DNA from: a virus
Length of the DNA stretch: 22,634 nucleotides
Reading direction: 5' to 3' (one strand)
Virus record (IMG/VR): IMGVR_UViG_3300030099_005423
Coordinates: 1-22,634 of that record
Made by a program: the position numbers and the translations under genes. Below the pieces are notes generated by a model, which saw only the letters and a list, made by a program, of their open reading frames with translations, did no database searches and was not told the DNA's origin. Of the stretch, positions 212 through 11,598 are shown one piece after another; position 1 is the stretch's first letter, and the number at the start of each line of letters is the position of its first letter.

Positions 212-814
212 ATGAGGTACAAATATCGAAATAATGATTATAAGTTTTTTGATCGACAAAGTGAGATAATCGGTATCTCGGCATATCGAAGTTTACCTTA
301 TTATGTGTACGTGGAAAACTTTCTAAATATGAAAGAAAATTTTGACGATTACTACGGCAGGGATAATCTCGTTGAGTTGGTCGATGCAGATATGAGAGCA
401 CGTTTTGATAGTGCATTGAGAAACTTAAGATTTGCATTGAAAGAGAATCCAACAAGAGAAGATATAAAACATGTTGCCGGTCGTTGTGAGATTTGTAAAC
501 GAGGTCTCGCAGCGATGAAAAAGTATGTCGAAGATAATAAATTATTTATTCCACCGGTTGTTTGGATTGCAAAAACAGACGATCATAAATTTGGAATAGT
601 ACAAAGAGAACATCACAAATCCACGGCTGCCACCCAACATAAAGATATAAAATGTTTTTTTTCGTTATTAGAAGTCGCAATTATCCTAAACGACCATAAA
701 AAAACTTTGGATATAAAAAAGAGTCTGACCGATCACAATTTAAAAAGTGAGGTGGTCGAAGTTGTTCAATCTAAATATACGGAGGAAGAGTTTGATGAAC
801 CAATCCCATTCTGA
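212..814 (+). CDS. hypothetical protein, 200 aa
   Basis: Complete gene of 200 codons with an ATG preceded by GAGG at good spacing. I do not recognise the family. The protein is soluble, charged, and carries no membrane segment or signal peptide. The middle has helical character, with one CEICK pair of cysteines near residue 93 that is not followed by a second pair, so a zinc finger is not supported. The C terminus is acidic (EEEFDEP). The gene follows the repeat-rich leader, and its end overlaps the next gene by 20 bases, so the two are probably one operon. Its place outside the structural region suggests a regulatory or metabolic role, but that is only positional inference. Confidence 0.75.
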   Translation: MRYKYRNNDYKFFDRQSEIIGISAYRSLPYYVYVENFLNMKENFDDYYGRDNLVELVDADMRARFDSALRNLRFALKENPTREDIKHVAGRCEICKRGLAAMKKYVEDNKLFIPPVVWIAKTDDHKFGIVQREHHKSTAATQHKDIKCFFSLLEVAIILNDHKKTLDIKKSLTDHNLKSEVVEVVQSKYTEEEFDEPIPF

Positions 815-1166
815 AAAAAAACCAAATATAATATTAAACGAGTGCGAAGATATTCTTAAATTAAAAGGTAAACAATACGGAGACTATGTCGAGTTATTCG
901 ATCGGATGGCTGAACGTTTCTCGTTTTCGTTGGGAGAATATGTGACACCGGTTCGGGCAGCGATGATTATGGTCGAGTTGAAATTGGCACGAATGGATTT
1001 AAATTTACCTTGCCATGATGATTTTCAAGATGCGATTAATTACCTGGCGATTGCAGGAAGTTTGCAAAGTAGAGTCGAAGTCATAAAGAAAAGACCAAGA
1101 CCGGAGATAAAAGGTAATTATAAAGATATTGATTGGCAAGATATCCTAAAAAAGAAACCGGAATAA
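795..1166 (+). CDS. DUF6378-like phage protein
   Basis: I chose ATG 795 because GGAGG lies at 781-785, nine bases upstream. An earlier in-frame ATG at 747 lies deep inside the preceding gene and lacks such a site. The 123-aa product has a helical core running from GKQYGDYVELFDR through TPVRAAMIMVELKLAR to DDFQDAINYLAIAG. This matches the pattern I know from DUF6378 proteins of phages (a YGDP-like start, an M.LKIAR helix, then a D...DxxGYxA helix). The molecular function of that family is not established. An all-helical fold reminiscent of MazG-type proteins is possible but unproven. The basic tail (KKRPRPEIK) is probably disordered. It is co-transcribed with the gene upstream. Confidence 0.75.
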   Translation: MNQSHSEKKPNIILNECEDILKLKGKQYGDYVELFDRMAERFSFSLGEYVTPVRAAMIMVELKLARMDLNLPCHDDFQDAINYLAIAGSLQSRVEVIKKRPRPEIKGNYKDIDWQDILKKKPE

Positions 1167-4176: not shown

Positions 4177-5577
4177 ATGACAGATAAAAAAAGTGATGCG
4201 GCAGACACACTTCTAAAACTTCATAATGATCCCGTATTATTCGTTCGTACATGCTTACAAGCAGAACCACAAAAGTGGCAGCGACAAGCATTACGTAATA
4301 TTGTAAAAAATAATCGACTTTCGATACGAAGTGGTCATGCCGTTGGGAAAACGACATTTCTTAGTTGGACAATCCTCTGGTGGCTAACAACACATTACCC
4401 ATGCAAGATTGCAGCAACAGCCAACTCTGCGAGTCAGTTAGAACAAATTCTTTGGTCAGAAATCCAAAAGTGGCACAAGATGATGCCAAAAGGTTTCCAA
4501 GACGAATTGGAGTTCCGTTCTGATAAGATATCGATAAAAAGTGCTGCCGATAGTTTTTGTGTGGCAAGAACGAGTAGGAGAGAGAACCCAGAGGCACTAC
4601 AAGGTTTCCACTCTCCAAACATGCTTTTCATAATCGATGAGGCTTCCGGTGTACCAGATTTGATCTTTGAGGTCGCACAAGGTGCTATGTCAACTCCAGG
4701 TGCAAAGACAATCATGGTGGGCAACCCCAATCGTGCATCCGGATATTTCTATGACTCGTTCAAGAAAAATGCAGAGAGTTGGAAAACAATGACTGTTGCA
4801 TGTCACGATTCCGATACTGTTGACCCACAATACATAAAAGATATGAAGAAACAGTATGGCGAAGATAGTAATGTCTATAGAGTTCGTGTACTCGGCTTAC
4901 CTCCGGAAACAGATGATAACTCAATAATCAGTCGCACTCTCGTTGAGTCTGCCATAGACAGAGACGTTGACCCCGTTGAGACGATGCCGGTGTGGGGAGT
5001 AGACATTGCACGACATGGTTCAGATCGATGTGCCTTGGCAAAACGAAAAGGCAACGTTGTTACTGAACCCATAAAGTTTTGGGGAGATAAAGACCTCATG
5101 GAGACTGTCGGAGTAATCATGGCAGAATATGAGTCTACCCCATATAGAGAAAGACCGAGCGAAATATTAGTTGATAGTATCGGTCTTGGTGCAGGAGTGG
5201 TGGATAGGTTGGTGGAATTAGATATGCCAGCACGAGGCATAAATGTGGCAGAAAGTTCAAGTATGACGGACAGATACATGAGACTTAGAGATGAGTTATG
5301 GTTCAAATGTCGTGAATGGCTTGAGGCAAAAGATTGCAAGATACCGGATCAAGATGAACTTGTGAACGAGATTACCAACGTTCGATATGAGATATTGTCG
5401 AGTGGCAAATTCAAGGTCGAGTCAAAAGACCAAATGAAGAAACGTGGATTTAGAAGTCCAGACGTTGCCGATGCACTCATGTTGACCTTTGCTGGTATGG
5501 CAGTTCGTGCTGCAGGTGGTTCGGCATATAAGTTCAATTCAAAAATAGATTATGGCGATAGTGGTTGGATTGTATGA
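4177..5577 (+). CDS. terL: terminase large subunit (packaging ATPase/nuclease)
   Basis: This 466-aa protein has the two expected domains. The N-terminal ATPase carries the Walker A motif SGHAVGKT (residues 52-59), a Walker B FIIDE (151-155, with catalytic E155) and a coupling-type stretch TIMVGNP (178-184). The C-terminal nuclease has acidic residues in GVDIARHGSD (D276), ILVDSIG (D333) and SPDVADAL (D429, D432), as in RNase H-like terminase nucleases. It translocates phage DNA into the prohead through the portal, powered by ATP, and cuts the concatemer. The length is normal for the family. No good ribosome site precedes the ATG, although a strong promoter does. The gene ends in an ATGA overlap with the next. 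Unusually, a DNA-modification cassette of about 2.8 kb and a small-protein cluster separate it from the portal gene. Confidence 0.96.
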   Translation: MTDKKSDAADTLLKLHNDPVLFVRTCLQAEPQKWQRQALRNIVKNNRLSIRSGHAVGKTTFLSWTILWWLTTHYPCKIAATANSASQLEQILWSEIQKWHKMMPKGFQDELEFRSDKISIKSAADSFCVARTSRRENPEALQGFHSPNMLFIIDEASGVPDLIFEVAQGAMSTPGAKTIMVGNPNRASGYFYDSFKKNAESWKTMTVACHDSDTVDPQYIKDMKKQYGEDSNVYRVRVLGLPPETDDNSIISRTLVESAIDRDVDPVETMPVWGVDIARHGSDRCALAKRKGNVVTEPIKFWGDKDLMETVGVIMAEYESTPYRERPSEILVDSIGLGAGVVDRLVELDMPARGINVAESSSMTDRYMRLRDELWFKCREWLEAKDCKIPDQDELVNEITNVRYEILSSGKFKVESKDQMKKRGFRSPDVADALMLTFAGMAVRAAGGSAYKFNSKIDYGDSGWIV

Positions 5578-6374
5578 AATTACGAGTCTTGTCTCTCGGT
5601 GCAGGAGTACAAAGTTCAACGTTAGCATTGATGATAGAACATGGCGACATACCTATGGTTGATTGTGCTATCTTTGCCGACACTATGGCAGAGCCAAAAG
5701 AGGTCATGGATCATCTATCGTGGTTAAAAGGCAAACTGTCCTACCCATTACACATTGTGAGTAAAGGTAATCTTACAGAGGACACGATTGATATTGTTGA
5801 GGGCAGAAGTCATAGAAAATTCATGGATATCCCATTTTACACTGTAAACAAGGAAACCGGTAAAAAGGGTTTGTTGAAAAGACAATGCACGAGTGATTAT
5901 AAAATAACTCCAGTGCATCAAAAAATAAGACAGTTGTTAGGTCTACAAAAGGGAGAGAAAAGAAAAAGGGGAACAGAGGTCGAACTCCTTATGGGTATAT
6001 CAATTGATGAAATCGTGAGAATGAAAGAAAATCATGTGCCATGGGTCAAAAACGTTTTTCCATTGATTGATAATAATATCTCCAGGCAAGACTGCAAAAA
6101 TTGGTTCAATGAAAGATATCAGAGGCAATTACCAAGGTCTGCATGTATTTATTGCCCATATAAGACAAATGGAGAATGGCAATACATGAAAAATGAGATG
6201 CCACAAGAATGGGATAGAGCCGTAGAGTTTGACAGAAAGATACGATACGGAACAACGACAGACGACTCTGTCTTTGTGCATCGTTCGTGTAAACCTTTAG
6301 AAGAGGTTACATTCAAAGAGGAAGTCACACAATATTCGTTACTCGATGAGTGTGATGGGATGTGTGGAGTATGA
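5574..6374 (+). CDS. PAPS reductase-like adenine nucleotide alpha-hydrolase family protein
   Basis: The start was set at ATG 5574, which overlaps the terminase stop as ATGA. The 266-aa product has the PP-loop variant SLGAGVQSS (residues 7-15), then CAIFADTMAEPKEV (31-44), typical of phage PAPS-reductase-like proteins of the adenine nucleotide alpha-hydrolase superfamily. Cysteines sit at C105 (RQCTSDYK), C191 and C194 (ACIYCPYK), and C260 and C264 (ECDGMC). The superfamily activates substrates with ATP, and DndC and TtcA are related members that carry an Fe-S cluster. The cysteines here could bind metal or Fe-S, but that is inference. True sulfate assimilation is unlikely, as no other sulfur gene is present. 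Two DNA methyltransferases follow, so a DNA or RNA modification role is plausible. No dnd partner genes are visible. Confidence 0.85.
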   Translation: MKLRVLSLGAGVQSSTLALMIEHGDIPMVDCAIFADTMAEPKEVMDHLSWLKGKLSYPLHIVSKGNLTEDTIDIVEGRSHRKFMDIPFYTVNKETGKKGLLKRQCTSDYKITPVHQKIRQLLGLQKGEKRKRGTEVELLMGISIDEIVRMKENHVPWVKNVFPLIDNNISRQDCKNWFNERYQRQLPRSACIYCPYKTNGEWQYMKNEMPQEWDRAVEFDRKIRYGTTTDDSVFVHRSCKPLEEVTFKEEVTQYSLLDECDGMCGV

Positions 6375-6925
6375 TTCCATTTCCAAAGCAGAAATACAAT
6401 ATTATTTATGCAGACCCACCTTGGGGTTTTAGCAGTAAAGAATTATGTAGGTATGATGGAAAAAGATTTACTAGCATAGAAAAACATTATCCCACACAGT
6501 CAAAGACATGGATTAAAGATTTGCCTGTTAATGATATTACCAATAATGACTGTGCCTTATTTCTTTGGACAACTGATGCACACATAAAAGATGCAATAGA
6601 AACTATTGAAAGTTGGGGGTTTAAATATATAACAATAGCCTTTGTTTGGGAAAAGAAAACAAATAAGGGAAAAACTGTAGCTAATCTTGGTGCATGGACA
6701 ATGAAAAACTATGAAATATGTTTGTTGGGTACTAAAGGCTCAATGCTTAAACACAAGCAAGTAAATAACATATATCAAAAAGTAGAGGCAGAAAGAACTA
6801 AGCACAGCAAAAAACCACAAGAAGTAAGAAGTAGAATAGAATTATTGTTTGGCGATTTGCCACGTATAGAATTGTTCGCTAGACAAAGATTTGATGGTTG
6901 GGACGCTTGGGGTAATGAGTTATGA
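6371..6925 (+). CDS. MT-A70 family N6-adenine methyltransferase
   Basis: The chosen ATG 6371 overlaps the previous stop (ATGA); an in-frame GTG at 6362 is the alternative. The 184-aa product carries DPPW (residues 15-18), the catalytic motif of MT-A70 amino-methyltransferases, in IIYADPPWGF. It also has LFLWTTDAHIKDA and an ELFAR..FDGWDAWGNE C terminus, all diagnostic of phage and bacterial MT-A70 enzymes. It should transfer a methyl group from S-adenosylmethionine to N6 of adenine in DNA, probably at a short specific site. The size fits small phage members, which lack a separate recognition domain. Three sampled 60-base rows have 18-19 G/C each (about 31 percent). One row each of the terminase and portal genes has 28, which suggests a separate origin. 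Its end overlaps the next gene as ATGA. Confidence 0.93.
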   Translation: MIPFPKQKYNIIYADPPWGFSSKELCRYDGKRFTSIEKHYPTQSKTWIKDLPVNDITNNDCALFLWTTDAHIKDAIETIESWGFKYITIAFVWEKKTNKGKTVANLGAWTMKNYEICLLGTKGSMLKHKQVNNIYQKVEAERTKHSKKPQEVRSRIELLFGDLPRIELFARQRFDGWDAWGNEL

Positions 6926-7167
6926 GTCGCCTTACAACAGATGAACTCATTGAGAGTGAAGATATTAAAAGATGCTGCGATTTCTTTGCAGATATCATAC
7001 AAGATTTGATGACTTCTAATACGGCAACCGGAGATACGATTGCCACATCGTTGTGCATGTTGGCACACGATATTATGAGAGGTCAACACATGACCGACAT
7101 TGAAATACAATTCTTTGTCGATGAGATTTTTCCGAGAAGTGGTTTTAGGTTCGATTTTGACGATTAA
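6922..7167 (+). CDS. hypothetical protein between two methyltransferase genes, 81 aa
   Basis: An 81-aa acidic protein whose ATG overlaps the MT-A70 stop (ATGA) and whose TAA directly abuts the GTG of the cytosine methyltransferase. It is helical in its first two-thirds, with a DELIESEDIKRCCDFFADII stretch. The end is acidic and aromatic (FPRSGFRFDFDD). No family is recognised. The tight junctions on both sides suggest it is made together with the two methyltransferases. It could be a small partner or regulator, or an unrelated passenger. Nothing in the sequence settles this. Confidence 0.7.
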   Translation: MSRLTTDELIESEDIKRCCDFFADIIQDLMTSNTATGDTIATSLCMLAHDIMRGQHMTDIEIQFFVDEIFPRSGFRFDFDD

Positions 7168-8421
7168 GTGAAAGTTCTAAGTCTGTTCGATGGAATGGCT
7201 TGTGGGAGAATTGCACTAGAACGATGTGGATTTGATATTGAAAAATATTATGCATCTGAGATTGATAAATATGCAATCGAAGTGGCGAGGGCAAACTATC
7301 CGGATATAATACATATTGGAGATGTTTGTAACGTCACGGCAGAAGATTATCAAGATATCGACTTACTTATGGGTGGTAGCCCATGCCAAGGATTTAGTTT
7401 TGCTGGTAAGAAACTAAACTTTGACGATCCACGATCTGCACTATTTTTTGAGTTCGTTCGCATACTGCAAGAAGTAAGGCCCAAATATTTCTTACTTGAA
7501 AATGTACGTATGAAAAAAGAATACCAAGATATCATAACAGAACATTTGGGTGTAGAACCGATTATGATAAATAGTGCTCTTGTTTCGGCACAAAATCGTG
7601 TGAGACTATATTGGACTAATATACCAAACGTAGAACAACCAGAGGATAGAGGGATTGTTCTTAAAGATGTGTTGGAACGATTTGACGACTTTGAAGAGTC
7701 TTCTGCACTGCCAAAATGGTTGCACGGGAATTACAACGATAAGAAACGTATTGACTTGGTAAAAAGTATAGACGAAAAGTCAAGCACATTGAGAGCAACT
7801 ATGTGGAAAGGGCATACAGAGGGTTATGTTAGCAAACCAAACCAAGTCGAAAACGCAGCAGAAAAAACAGTCTATGAATTTGTTGAACATCCTAACTACT
7901 ATCAATTTGATGTTAGTGGTAAAGGCTATAATTCACAACAAGATCGCATACGTAAGACAGAGGCTAAGTCAAACACACTCGCAGCAGGACACGCTTCGAT
8001 ACCAAAAGTTGTAACACGACAAGTTTCTATGACCGAAGTTCGAACAGACGAAGCAAATCAAATACGTTACGAAAACAGAAGAAAACATGGTTATGACTGG
8101 TCGCCAAGACAGTTGAGGCATTTGGTAGAGAGAACTGACAACAAATCAAATGCAATCACTCCTAGTCTTACAAAACAACACATAATCAAAGAAGAGTCTG
8201 CTGGTATTTCGTACAGAAAACTTACACCGGTTGAATGTGAACGTTTGCAAACAATACCCGATAACTACACAAACTATGTATCAAACACACAACGATATAA
8301 GATGATCGGCAATGGTTGGACTGTCGAAGTCATACGGCACATATTTAAAAATATGAAGCCACCTACTAACAAAGTTACAAGCGATAGAAAAAATTTAAAC
8401 ACATCACTTATTGTTAGGTAG
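7168..8421 (+). CDS. C5-cytosine DNA methyltransferase with repeated recognition region
   Basis: GTG start directly after the previous stop; 417 aa. Conserved motifs are in order: I, SLFDGMACGRIAL (5-17); II, SEID (30-33); IV, GGSPCQGFS (69-77) with nucleophile C73; VI, LENV (110-113); VIII, QNRVRLYW (142-149); and X, MIGNGWTVEVIRHI (379-392) after TPVECERLQTIPDNYT. All catalytic elements are present, so it should methylate carbon 5 of cytosine in phage DNA using S-adenosylmethionine. The span between motifs VIII and X, about 230 residues, is long and contains KSSTLRAT (204-211), KSNTLAAG (267-274) and KSNAITPS (326-333), about 60 residues apart. These resemble repeats of the conserved element that follows a recognition domain and may reflect several target-recognition modules. 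No restriction enzyme is nearby. Confidence 0.95.
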   Translation: MKVLSLFDGMACGRIALERCGFDIEKYYASEIDKYAIEVARANYPDIIHIGDVCNVTAEDYQDIDLLMGGSPCQGFSFAGKKLNFDDPRSALFFEFVRILQEVRPKYFLLENVRMKKEYQDIITEHLGVEPIMINSALVSAQNRVRLYWTNIPNVEQPEDRGIVLKDVLERFDDFEESSALPKWLHGNYNDKKRIDLVKSIDEKSSTLRATMWKGHTEGYVSKPNQVENAAEKTVYEFVEHPNYYQFDVSGKGYNSQQDRIRKTEAKSNTLAAGHASIPKVVTRQVSMTEVRTDEANQIRYENRRKHGYDWSPRQLRHLVERTDNKSNAITPSLTKQHIIKEESAGISYRKLTPVECERLQTIPDNYTNYVSNTQRYKMIGNGWTVEVIRHIFKNMKPPTNKVTSDRKNLNTSLIVR

Positions 8422-8438: not shown

Positions 8439-8711
8439 ATGGTAGCAAAAAAATTTCAAAATCCCAAAGGTGGACTCAATCAAAAAGGTCGTGAGTTCTT
8501 CAAAAGAAAAGAGGGCAGCAACCTCAAAAGACCTATCAAGAGTGGCACGAACCCAAGACGTGTAAGTTTTGCTGCACGTTTCGGTGGCATGGCAGGGTCA
8601 ATGAAAGATAGTAAAGGGAGACCAACAAGACTTGCTCTTGCTCTAAAAGCATGGGGTTTTTCCTCAAAAGAACAAGCGAGAGCTTTCGCCAACAAACATA
8701 AAAAATCATAG
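8439..8711 (+). CDS. DUF6321-like small basic protein, 90 aa
   Basis: A 90-aa, strongly basic protein with GAGGA ahead of the ATG. The sequence GGLNQKGREFFKR..GSNLKRPI, then FAARFGGMAGSMKDSKGRPTR and ALALKAWGF match the layout of DUF6321 proteins found in phages, from memory. The function is unknown. The lysine and arginine content suggests nucleic-acid binding or a virion-associated role. It starts a run of six small basic genes that ends at the portal, all with clear or overlapping starts, so they are probably expressed together in the late operon. Confidence 0.85.
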   Translation: MVAKKFQNPKGGLNQKGREFFKRKEGSNLKRPIKSGTNPRRVSFAARFGGMAGSMKDSKGRPTRLALALKAWGFSSKEQARAFANKHKKS

Positions 8712-8720
8712 GAGTAGGAG

Positions 8721-8825
8721 ATGCCCGGCATGAAAATGTATATGAAAAAAATGACAATGAAAAAAGGTGCAAAGAAAAAAGGCAAGAAGAAAAAGGGAAT
8801 GTCTTATGGTGGCAAAAAGAAATAA
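8721..8825 (+). CDS. tiny lysine/methionine-rich protein, 34 aa
   Basis: An ATG preceded by GGAGTAGGAG opens a 34-codon gene rich in lysine and methionine, ending in YGGKKK. The strong ribosome site and the packing (9 bases after the previous stop, 20-base overlap with the next gene) support translation. The sequence is low in complexity (MKMYMKKMTMKKG), so homology searches will be weak. It may be a DNA- or RNA-binding peptide or an internal head peptide; this is inference from charge only. Confidence 0.65.
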   Translation: MPGMKMYMKKMTMKKGAKKKGKKKKGMSYGGKKK

Positions 8826-9003
8826 ACGTAAGTTTGCCAAAGTACCTAAAACAAAAAAAGGTGTACCAACTAAATATGTCAGTGGTGCAAAAAATCCTAC
8901 TGCGAGAGAACGTGAGATACTTCGTACTAGGCGATTATATAAACAAGGAAAACTTACAAAATCCATGATGGATAGAATAAGTAAACAACGGAGTCGAGGA
9001 TAA
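8806..9003 (+). CDS. small basic phage protein, 65 aa
   Basis: I chose ATG 8806, with AGGGA upstream; a GTG at 8767 would add 13 residues but sits inside the preceding gene without a ribosome site. The 65-aa product has a basic N terminus (AKRNKRKFAKVPKTKKG), then NPTAREREILRTRRLYKQGK and a basic helix to the C terminus. Its end overlaps the next start as TAATG. I have seen similar small proteins next to DUF5824-type genes in marine phages, but their function is unknown. Confidence 0.75.
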   Translation: MVAKRNKRKFAKVPKTKKGVPTKYVSGAKNPTAREREILRTRRLYKQGKLTKSMMDRISKQRSRG

Positions 9004-9507: not shown

Positions 9508-11598
9508 ATGGCGAAAATGGATGATAGCACATTTAAGGCCCTAATTGATGACCACATGGTTGATGCCGTAAACTACTATGATACTGAATTTTCGGCAGAT
9601 AGAGCAGAGACACTCGATTATTACCTAGGCGAACCATTTGGTAACGAGGTCGAGGATAGGTCACAAGTTGTTGCAACCGAGGTATCTGATACTATTGAAT
9701 ACATCATGCCTCAACTGATGAAAGTATTTTCTTCTTCTGATAATTTTGCACGTTTCATTGCAAGACAACCGGAAGATGTAAAGGCAGCCGAACAAGCAAC
9801 GGATTTAGTAAACTACGTCATCAACAGTGAAAACAATGGTTTTGTGAACATATATAATTGGTTCAAGGATGCCTTACTATTCAAAGTTGGTGTACTGAAA
9901 GTATTCTTTGATGAAGACATCGAAGTCGTAGAGGAAGAGTATAAGAACCTCAACGAAGAGGAGTTGACCATACTTCTTGACGATGACGATGTTGAGGTCG
10001 TATCACAATCAATCAATGAGGTCGGTGTTGTAACCGATGATAGTGATTTACCAGAAGATGAAGAGATTGACGAAGAAGACGTACAAAACATTGTCAGTGG
10101 CGAGAACCAAATACCATTGAGACGTACCTTTGACGTAGAGATCAAAAGACGTAAGAACAGTGGCAAAACAAAGATTATCAACGTGCCACCGGAAGAGTTT
10201 CTGTTTTCAAGACGTGCCGTTGATTTACAAACTGCAGACTTCGTTGCCCATAGAACAACAATGAAAGTTGGCGACCTCGTCAATGATGGATATGACTACG
10301 ATACTGTTTTACAATATTCCGGCTATTCTGAAATAGAAAACGAAATGGAAGTGCAACAACGTTTCCAAGATACAGAGAGTGGTGCAAAACACGAAAGTAA
10401 GAACGACCCAACCATGCACGATTGTTTAGTTACAGAGATGTATCTAAGGGCGGACTACGATGGCGATGGCATACCAGAAATGAGACGTGTTCTGGCGATT
10501 GGCACACAAAACTTTATATTGGAAAATGATCCTTTTGACCACATACCTTTCTGTATAGTATCTCCAATTTTAATGCCTCATAGAATGGTGGGTCGATCTG
10601 TTGCAGAGATGGTTAAAGATTTACAACTCATTAAGTCAACAGTGCTGCGACAACTACTCGATAATATGTACTTAACAAACAATTCACGAGTCGGTGTTGT
10701 TGAGGGTCAAGTAAACCTTGAGGACTTACTTTCTGCACGACCAGGGAATATTGTGAGGATGAGAGCACCAGGCATGGTACAAGCATTAAATGTGCCACAA
10801 ATAGGTGCAACTGGTTTTAACATGCTTGAGTACATCGACCAAGTACGTGACCAAAGAACTGGTTTCTCAAAAGCAAGTATGGGCCTTGATCCAAAAGTCT
10901 TGCAATCAACCACGGCACAAGCAGTGCAAAGTACAATGCAAGGAGCACAACTGAAGACAGAAATGATTGCTCGTGTGTTTGCAGAGACCGGTTGCAGAGA
11001 CCTTGCGAAGTTAGTCTTGTTATTATGTCAAAAACACATGATGAAAGAAAAGACCATACGATTAAGAAATGAATATGTAACGATAGACCCTCGTGCCTTT
11101 GATAATGAGTTTGACATCAGTATCGAAGTAGGACTTGGGAATGGTCGTGAAGAAGAAAAGATGGCGATGCTTCTGCAGATTGCAGGAAAACAAGAACAAC
11201 TAATCGGTCAACTTGGCATGAACAATCCGGTTGTCAAACCAAGTCAATATGTCAACACATTGAGTAAGATCATTGAGATGGCAGGGTTTAAAGATACCTC
11301 GCAGTTCTTCAATAGTGCAGAACAAATCGATCAAATACTCGCCCAGCAAGAACAACAAGCTGCAAGTGCAAATGCACCGATGAACCAACAAATGCAAGAG
11401 ATTGAGTTAGAAAGACAAAAACTCCAAGCAGATATAGCACTTGAAAGAGAAAAAATGTTGTTAGAATTAGAACTCGAACGTGAGAAGTTCCAACAACAAT
11501 TAGAACTACGTAGAGAAGAATTACAAGCAGAATTAGACCTTAGAGCACAAAAGGCTGCACTAGGTGGCGATATCAGTACAAATCTACCACGAGCATAA
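9508..11598 (+). CDS. portal protein
   Basis: This 696-aa protein lies in the standard position before scaffold and capsid. Its N-terminal region (DYYLGEPFGNEVEDRSQVV, TEVSDTIEYIMPQLMKVFSS) and its core (DPFDHIPFCIVSPILMPHRM then GRSVAEMVKDLQLIKSTVLR, and TGFSKASMGLDPKVLQSTTA) are typical of podovirus portals of the P22-like type. It forms the ring at one head vertex through which DNA enters and leaves and on which scaffold and capsid assemble. Two regions stand out: an acidic stretch at about residues 134-198, possibly a charged loop, and a coiled coil at about 630-682 of heptad-like ELEREK / LELRREEL repeats that could form a barrel extending into the head. The length is in the range of large podovirus portals. 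Confidence 0.92.
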   Translation: MAKMDDSTFKALIDDHMVDAVNYYDTEFSADRAETLDYYLGEPFGNEVEDRSQVVATEVSDTIEYIMPQLMKVFSSSDNFARFIARQPEDVKAAEQATDLVNYVINSENNGFVNIYNWFKDALLFKVGVLKVFFDEDIEVVEEEYKNLNEEELTILLDDDDVEVVSQSINEVGVVTDDSDLPEDEEIDEEDVQNIVSGENQIPLRRTFDVEIKRRKNSGKTKIINVPPEEFLFSRRAVDLQTADFVAHRTTMKVGDLVNDGYDYDTVLQYSGYSEIENEMEVQQRFQDTESGAKHESKNDPTMHDCLVTEMYLRADYDGDGIPEMRRVLAIGTQNFILENDPFDHIPFCIVSPILMPHRMVGRSVAEMVKDLQLIKSTVLRQLLDNMYLTNNSRVGVVEGQVNLEDLLSARPGNIVRMRAPGMVQALNVPQIGATGFNMLEYIDQVRDQRTGFSKASMGLDPKVLQSTTAQAVQSTMQGAQLKTEMIARVFAETGCRDLAKLVLLLCQKHMMKEKTIRLRNEYVTIDPRAFDNEFDISIEVGLGNGREEEKMAMLLQIAGKQEQLIGQLGMNNPVVKPSQYVNTLSKIIEMAGFKDTSQFFNSAEQIDQILAQQEQQAASANAPMNQQMQEIELERQKLQADIALEREKMLLELELEREKFQQQLELRREELQAELDLRAQKAALGGDISTNLPRA

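Follow-up and report, generated by a model that had tools for sequence, protein, structure and literature searches.

A gene-swap slot between the terminase and portal genes of a marine podovirus, probably holding two anti-restriction methyltransferase genes and an SspD-like gene

The genes discussed here lie between the terminase and portal genes of the IMG/VR viral contig IMGVR_UViG_3300030099_005423, a sequence of 22,634 bases (the window) that is probably a fragment. All are encoded on the plus strand of what appears as a head operon. The gene for the terminase large subunit (TerL; 4177 to 5577; Pfam Terminase_6N, phrog_2) forms the left border and is followed by a gene for a stand-alone, SspD-like protein of 266 residues from the 3′-phosphoadenosine-5′-phosphosulfate (PAPS) reductase superfamily (5574 to 6374; phrog_424 at 1.7e-43, PADLOC SspD at 5.7e-18), referred to below as PAPS-like. 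Next come an MT-A70 N6-adenine methyltransferase of 184 residues with a DPPW motif (6371 to 6925; Pfam MT-A70, E = 3e-27; phrog_359), an acidic, helical protein of 81 residues (6922 to 7167) with homologs in the terL-portal intervals of relatives, and a C5-cytosine methyltransferase of 417 residues with a GTG start (7168 to 8421; Pfam DNA_methylase, E = 2.5e-52). Small basic proteins lie to the right of the slot, the first being a DUF6321 protein (8439 to 8711; Pfam DUF6321 at 2.7e-23), and the interval ends at an SU10-type portal gene (9508 to 11598; Pfam SU10_portal, E = 3e-196). Comparison with related phages identifies this interval as a swap slot around a resident gene, that of the 81-residue protein, with separate histories and gene-exact presence or absence of the genes that enter it.

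An earlier note on this DNA, made from the sequence alone, had read the same four genes as one DNA-modification cassette inserted in the packaging/head operon and strung together by ATGA overlaps. The genes and their places were given correctly, and the interval does take in inserted genes, but the chain of overlaps is incomplete. ATGA overlaps are present at three joints (TerL/PAPS-like, PAPS-like/MT-A70, and MT-A70/81-residue protein), whereas at the fourth, in front of the C5 gene, a TAA stop directly abuts the GTG start. The 3′ end of terL reads GTATGA, and this is the joint at which accessory genes enter. In agreement with the description of the set as nuclease free, no nuclease was recognized among the open reading frames of the interval, so that the cognate nuclease of a restriction-modification system was not found there.

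To place these genes, relatives were fetched via TerL and the portal protein, and each was examined from terL to the portal gene. The comparison set consists of 25 close relatives in which the interval is complete and TerL is about 80 to 87% identical to that of the window; some are near-identical to each other, so the set is partly non-independent. A homolog of the 81-residue protein (24 to 56% identity in alignment A2) is encoded in 23 of the 25 intervals, directly after terL or one inserted gene later. MT-A70 genes are present in six intervals, C5 genes in two, and the PAPS-like gene in none of the 25; seven hold homologs of the small basic DUF6321 protein (BAS90). The seed search had returned no homologs of the 81-residue protein in phages or viral contigs because of its limited sensitivity, and a profile search among the TerL and portal loci later recovered them. 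The protein is modeled as helices (AlphaFold2; predicted local distance difference test [pLDDT] score of 80), and a fold search with it gave no match. Since its gene is so widely present, and present without the others, it is a resident gene in this group of phages, located behind terL, and stands outside any modification set, contrary to its earlier inclusion in one.

Pairs of near-identical sisters show how the remaining genes differ. L103 and L104 are 99.2 to 99.3% identical on both flanks of a single difference, which is one MT-A70 gene: in L103 the terL end with its GTATGA runs into the gene for the 81-residue protein, while in L104 the MT-A70 gene is interposed, with TATGA at each end, and the insert measures 524 bp by coordinates, the length of the gene minus the 4-base overlap. 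Likewise, L124 and L109 (~96% identical) differ by 1122 bp, that is, 373 codons and a stop, exactly one C5 gene, and a second difference between them contains two more genes. Such pairs give presence or absence and not the direction, gain or loss, of the change. The second difference (L109:7529-8844), downstream of the C5 gene, covers genes for a 241-residue protein and a 196-residue 2OG-Fe(II) oxygenase (Pfam, 7e-8), both missing in L124.

The genes of the window also differ in where their nearest relatives are found. The MT-A70 gene (GC content of 0.34) is 90% identical in amino acids and 86% in nucleotides to genes of two contigs, L273 and L274, that have nothing else detectable in common with the window, the match being confined to this gene. 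Its identity to the MT-A70 proteins that fill the same slot in the sisters is 44 to 48%. Because it is closer to genes of unrelated phages than to the slot copies of its own sisters, the slot has been filled more than once or its gene exchanged, and by these comparisons the MT-A70 gene is an accessory, horizontally acquired one. The closest relatives of the PAPS-like protein (73% identity) are encoded elsewhere, near homologs of the window gene at 1180 to 1650, and one of them, L004, also carries a C5 gene, at a different site. The PAPS-like, MT-A70, and C5 genes are three independently acquired single genes and not one fixed machine.

A joint machine in which the PAPS-like protein, the 81-residue protein, and both methyltransferases together modify DNA by sulfur or adenylate chemistry as well as methylating it would be in keeping with the contiguity and partial stop/start overlaps of the genes and with the conserved cysteines and SspD relationship of the PAPS-like protein. 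We regard it as very improbable, given that one of its members is a resident gene found without the others, that sisters differ by one gene at a time, that SspC was found neither in related phage records nor in the window, and that the gene-neighbor statistics proposed in the earlier note do not bear it out for MT-A70. These counts exclude the loci retrieved by C5 or MT-A70 queries, a biased set. An MT-A70 gene accompanies the PAPS-like gene in only 2 of 49 records, both of one lineage, and in 1 of 14 complete phages; the expected recurrent linkage was thus not found. An N4/N6 methylase gene does so in 1 of the 49. For C5 genes the figures are 16 of 49 records, 2 of 14 complete phages, and 9 of 17 PAPS lineages, so the loose association at the contig level stands and can be counted in favor of a joint machine, while closeness on the contig does not (7 of 16 within 3 kb against 4.7 expected; p = 0.14). 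Co-occurrence was accordingly rejected as cassette evidence for MT-A70, and for C5 the signal is weak and without significant proximity. In two contigs carrying the PAPS-like gene, L064 and L065, the C5 match (contig positions 5312-6031 and 4567-5286) crosses seven in-frame stops; either the gene copy appears disrupted or decaying, or a frame change lies within the match.

Both methyltransferases are complete. The MT-A70 domain scores 96.1 bits against a cut-off of 23.9 and covers positions 1 to 172 of 172, and the protein resembles the orphan MT-A70 enzymes of many phages (phrog_359) in its whole domain and its DPPW motif, differing from them in that its gene sits in a swap slot. The C5 enzyme scores 178.7 bits over positions 1 to 323 of 324 of the Pfam family, displays motifs I, IV (PCQ), VI (ENV), VIII (QNRVR), and X (GN) in the alignment, and has DNMT3A and M.HhaI among its PDB matches. 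Its variation is concentrated in one region: against the C5 enzyme that occupies this slot in L109, identity is 84% over the first 165 residues, which are catalytic, and 27% over the recognition region. That region is made up of modules with a K-S-x-T-L-like element that resemble target-recognition domains (TRDs), and in the window these are module A (residues 178 to 231; 7699 to 7860), module B (residues 244 to 285; 7897 to 8022), and module C (residues 286 to 343; 8023 to 8196), each of which recurs in other phage C5 enzymes. Among 103 C5 homologs we found the combinations A-D (46 distinct sequences), D, E-D, D-B, E-A-B, A-D-C, and E-A-D-B-C, with C also listed alone; the window enzyme is A-B-C, and the order always follows E-A-D-B-C.

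Given three exchangeable target-recognition modules, the window C5 enzyme probably methylates several sequences. Judged by sequence, it shares with multispecific phage enzymes the possession of several independent TRD-like modules. Multispecific C5-methyltransferases are known from the Bacillus phages SPR, phi3T, rho11, SPbeta, and H2, according to literature cited in PMC8936443. Like them, the window enzyme is an orphan with one conserved catalytic frame and tandem modules in its variable region; it differs in belonging to a marine podovirus, and the likeness is one of architecture. Two complete methyltransferases, no nuclease, and a position that varies among relatives are in keeping with the proposed self-protection of phage DNA.

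The third gene is of another kind. The PAPS-like protein belongs to a family (phrog_424) found in 46 phage records from unrelated hosts and morphologies, including the tailless P23-77, and its hosts are as diverse as Pelagibacter, Thermus, Mycobacterium, and Geobacillus. The earlier description of it as PAPS-reductase-like applies to the family, 25 of whose 39 aligned members match Pfam PAPS_reduct weakly, and to the fold, the confident AlphaFold2 model (pLDDT of 89) finding the PAPS reductase superfamily in Foldseek (best match 7rge, E = 3e-5, template modeling score of 0.54 by target); the window protein itself has no Pfam PAPS_reduct match. The extra cysteines that had been noticed are there as well: it possesses eight, and every family member has C105, C191, and C194, while nearly every one has C260. 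These four lie in the motifs C105-T-x3-K110, C191-x2-C194, and C-terminal C260-x3-C264, which are accompanied by GIS-x-DE-x2-R and by a PP-loop in which Gln13 replaces Asp.

The cysH genes of marine-virus surveys are read as auxiliary metabolic genes for assimilatory PAPS or adenosine 5′-phosphosulfate (APS) reductases that feed cysteine synthesis, and the fold of the window protein would suit such a role. Its PP-loop Gln and its Cys-bearing C-terminal tail are also like those of CysH, a likeness seen in part in the PDB profile matches (the best for the family being 21fy chain C [PptA], a recently solved protein, E = 2e-6). The direct comparison, made in genomes that hold both SspD and APS reductases, with the genuine proteins taken from the same genome set, points the other way. 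The phage-family profile matches SspD at 1e-16 to 1e-17, while the APS reductases of these genomes gave phmmer E values of 0.7 to 1.1 and a profile E value of 0.24 or no match; moreover, the family carries S-x-C-x2-C-[PF]-[FY] and a terminal Cys pair as SspD does, and not the ECG[IL]H of the tested reductases. The assimilatory reading therefore seems unlikely to us, and in sequence the PAPS-like family stands closer to SspD than it does to the assimilatory enzymes. Viral cysH genes have been reported as widespread (PMC9301287), and the proteins annotated in this way in Pelagibacter phage HTVC034P, Thermus phage P23-77, and Mycobacterium abscessus prophages are of the same family as the window protein, roughly 28 to 48% identical, their genes lying mostly in replication regions as opposed to a terL-portal slot. 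For M. abscessus prophages, Thermus phages, and Sinorhizobium prophages, the function of these genes has been left open (PMC8092301, PMC11437467, PMC12429752).

Nearness to SspD raises the question of whether the protein is a sulfur donor that works with SspB and SspC of the host, or with a host Dnd system, in phosphorothioating phage DNA. All 39 aligned family members match PADLOC SspD, and they share with SspD (SspABCD; DndC/BrxP) the PP-loop domain, C-T-x3-K, DE-x2-R, S-x-C-x2-C, and the C-terminal Cys pair, so that the cysteines are arranged as in bona fide SspD. The differences are nevertheless considerable. Genuine SspD, which adjoins SspC, scores 435 to 455 bits on the SspD model and the window protein 63.6 bits; the PP-loop reads SGG[KR]DS in genuine SspD and GAGVQSS in the window, with a Gln that 33 of 38 members of the family share, and the window protein lacks the SGGxDS PP-loop of ATP-pyrophosphatases. 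Together with the diversity of the hosts, each of which would need an Ssp or Dnd system of its own, these differences make a donor of this type improbable. As for partners encoded by the phages themselves, SspC (model PDLC02780; positive control of 1304 bits) was found neither in 25 phage records with the PAPS-like gene nor in the window, itself an incomplete contig. SspB, DndD, and DndE were not among the best 25 PADLOC families listed for neighboring proteins, no dedicated model having been searched for these three. The results do not support phosphorothioation of DNA by this phage alone, and sulfur-based DNA modification is unlikely; of the sulfur-based modification suggested earlier, there remain an SspD-like protein and its conserved cysteines, for which sulfur chemistry is possible, with no SspC and nothing beyond methylation to go with it. 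A further idea, which we hold to be unlikely, is that the SspD-like phage family, with its PP-loop Gln, five conserved cysteines, and lack of Ssp or Dnd partners, catalyzes a modification that depends on sulfur, has yet to be described, and acts on phage DNA, nucleotides, or tRNA; many viral cysH genes would then encode this enzyme.

The surroundings of the PAPS-like gene in other phages are mostly those of replication. In 14 phage neighborhoods it lies mostly among replication genes, and its neighbors on viral contigs include polymerase, helicase, and DUF6378 genes. Small DUF6378-type proteins adjoin it in seven viral loci (including L066, L074, and L254), and another DUF6378 protein is encoded near the left end of the window (747 to 1166). 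In a scan of bacterial genomes with alignment A3, relatives were found beside a ParB-like gene in at least 36 of 80 loci and beside an ArdC gene in at least 20 of 80, a mobile-island pattern, and no ssp or dnd neighbors were among the families listed. In these loci (L353 to L432; for example, L423:4994-5944 and L421:7565-9724), relatives recur between ArdC antirestriction and ParB-like genes, mostly in alphaproteobacteria.

The explanation we favor, and consider fairly likely, is that of a swap slot with three independent genes, two for anti-restriction methyltransferases and one for a separate PAPS-like enzyme. The terL-portal interval of these marine podoviruses is a place of gene exchange that the phage of the window filled with three single genes. 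MT-A70, producing N6-methyladenine, and the C5 enzyme, producing 5-methylcytosine in several sequences, would methylate newly replicated phage DNA before it is packaged and so shield it from the restriction enzymes of the next host, and the swapping of genes and modules would change which of these enzymes are evaded. On family knowledge, methylation against restriction is the likeliest function of the pair. The PAPS-like protein is best regarded as a separate passenger with thiol or adenylate chemistry; it would be an SspD-related, adenine-nucleotide-binding, thiol-relay enzyme that works without Dnd or Ssp partners, and its substrate would more likely be a small molecule, a nucleotide, or RNA than the DNA backbone.

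Several points weigh against this explanation. C5 genes are in excess on contigs with the PAPS-like gene (16 of 49 against 5 of 45 TerL-relative contigs; Fisher p = 0.014), although the test ignores relatedness and phage type and the 45 contigs are an imperfect control; the weak co-occurrence leaves room for a functional link. The contig is incomplete, and partner genes could lie outside it. The methylation is predicted from sequence, and the C5 module borders were drawn from homologs and not from methylation data. Finally, an orphan methyltransferase of a phage can have a part in regulation or packaging rather than in anti-restriction. The position of the window's two enzymes in a packaging operon beside terL would fit such a use, for instance the marking of DNA for packaging, but their presence and absence between near-identical phages suggests that packaging can dispense with them, and other phages keep methyltransferases in replication regions; we give this alternative little weight.

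Other contents of the interval may be mentioned briefly. In the window, a lysine-rich stretch at 8720 to 8826 (KKGAKKKGKKKKGMSYGGKKK type) encodes one of the several tiny basic proteins that separate the C5 and portal genes, and there is no tRNA or Rfam RNA. Among the relatives, the L099 interval encodes a protein that is HNH-nuclease-like by eye, without a clear Pfam match, and the L097 interval a protein with an NPPY motif and no Pfam match. A short protein marked by GL[VI]DIV...KAYDVK recurs before the portal gene (L107:7316-7690, L113:4916-5266, L121:3837-4283, and L105:2159-2623) and is not found in the window's interval; the L107 copy has no Pfam match, and we presume that the protein may be a PD-(D/E)XK or homing-type nuclease.

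In sum, the slot probably holds anti-restriction genes of two ordinary kinds, of which the C5 enzyme is probably multispecific, together with a member of an unsolved SspD-like family. The near-identical natural pairs reveal single methyltransferase genes coming and going where stop and start codons meet in a late phage operon, and with a C5 family whose target-recognition modules are shuffled, such gene-exact pairs make a restriction arms race readable gene by gene. The place of the PAPS-like family, nearer to the phosphorothioation donor SspD, calls into question whether viral cysH genes should be read as genes of sulfur assimilation.

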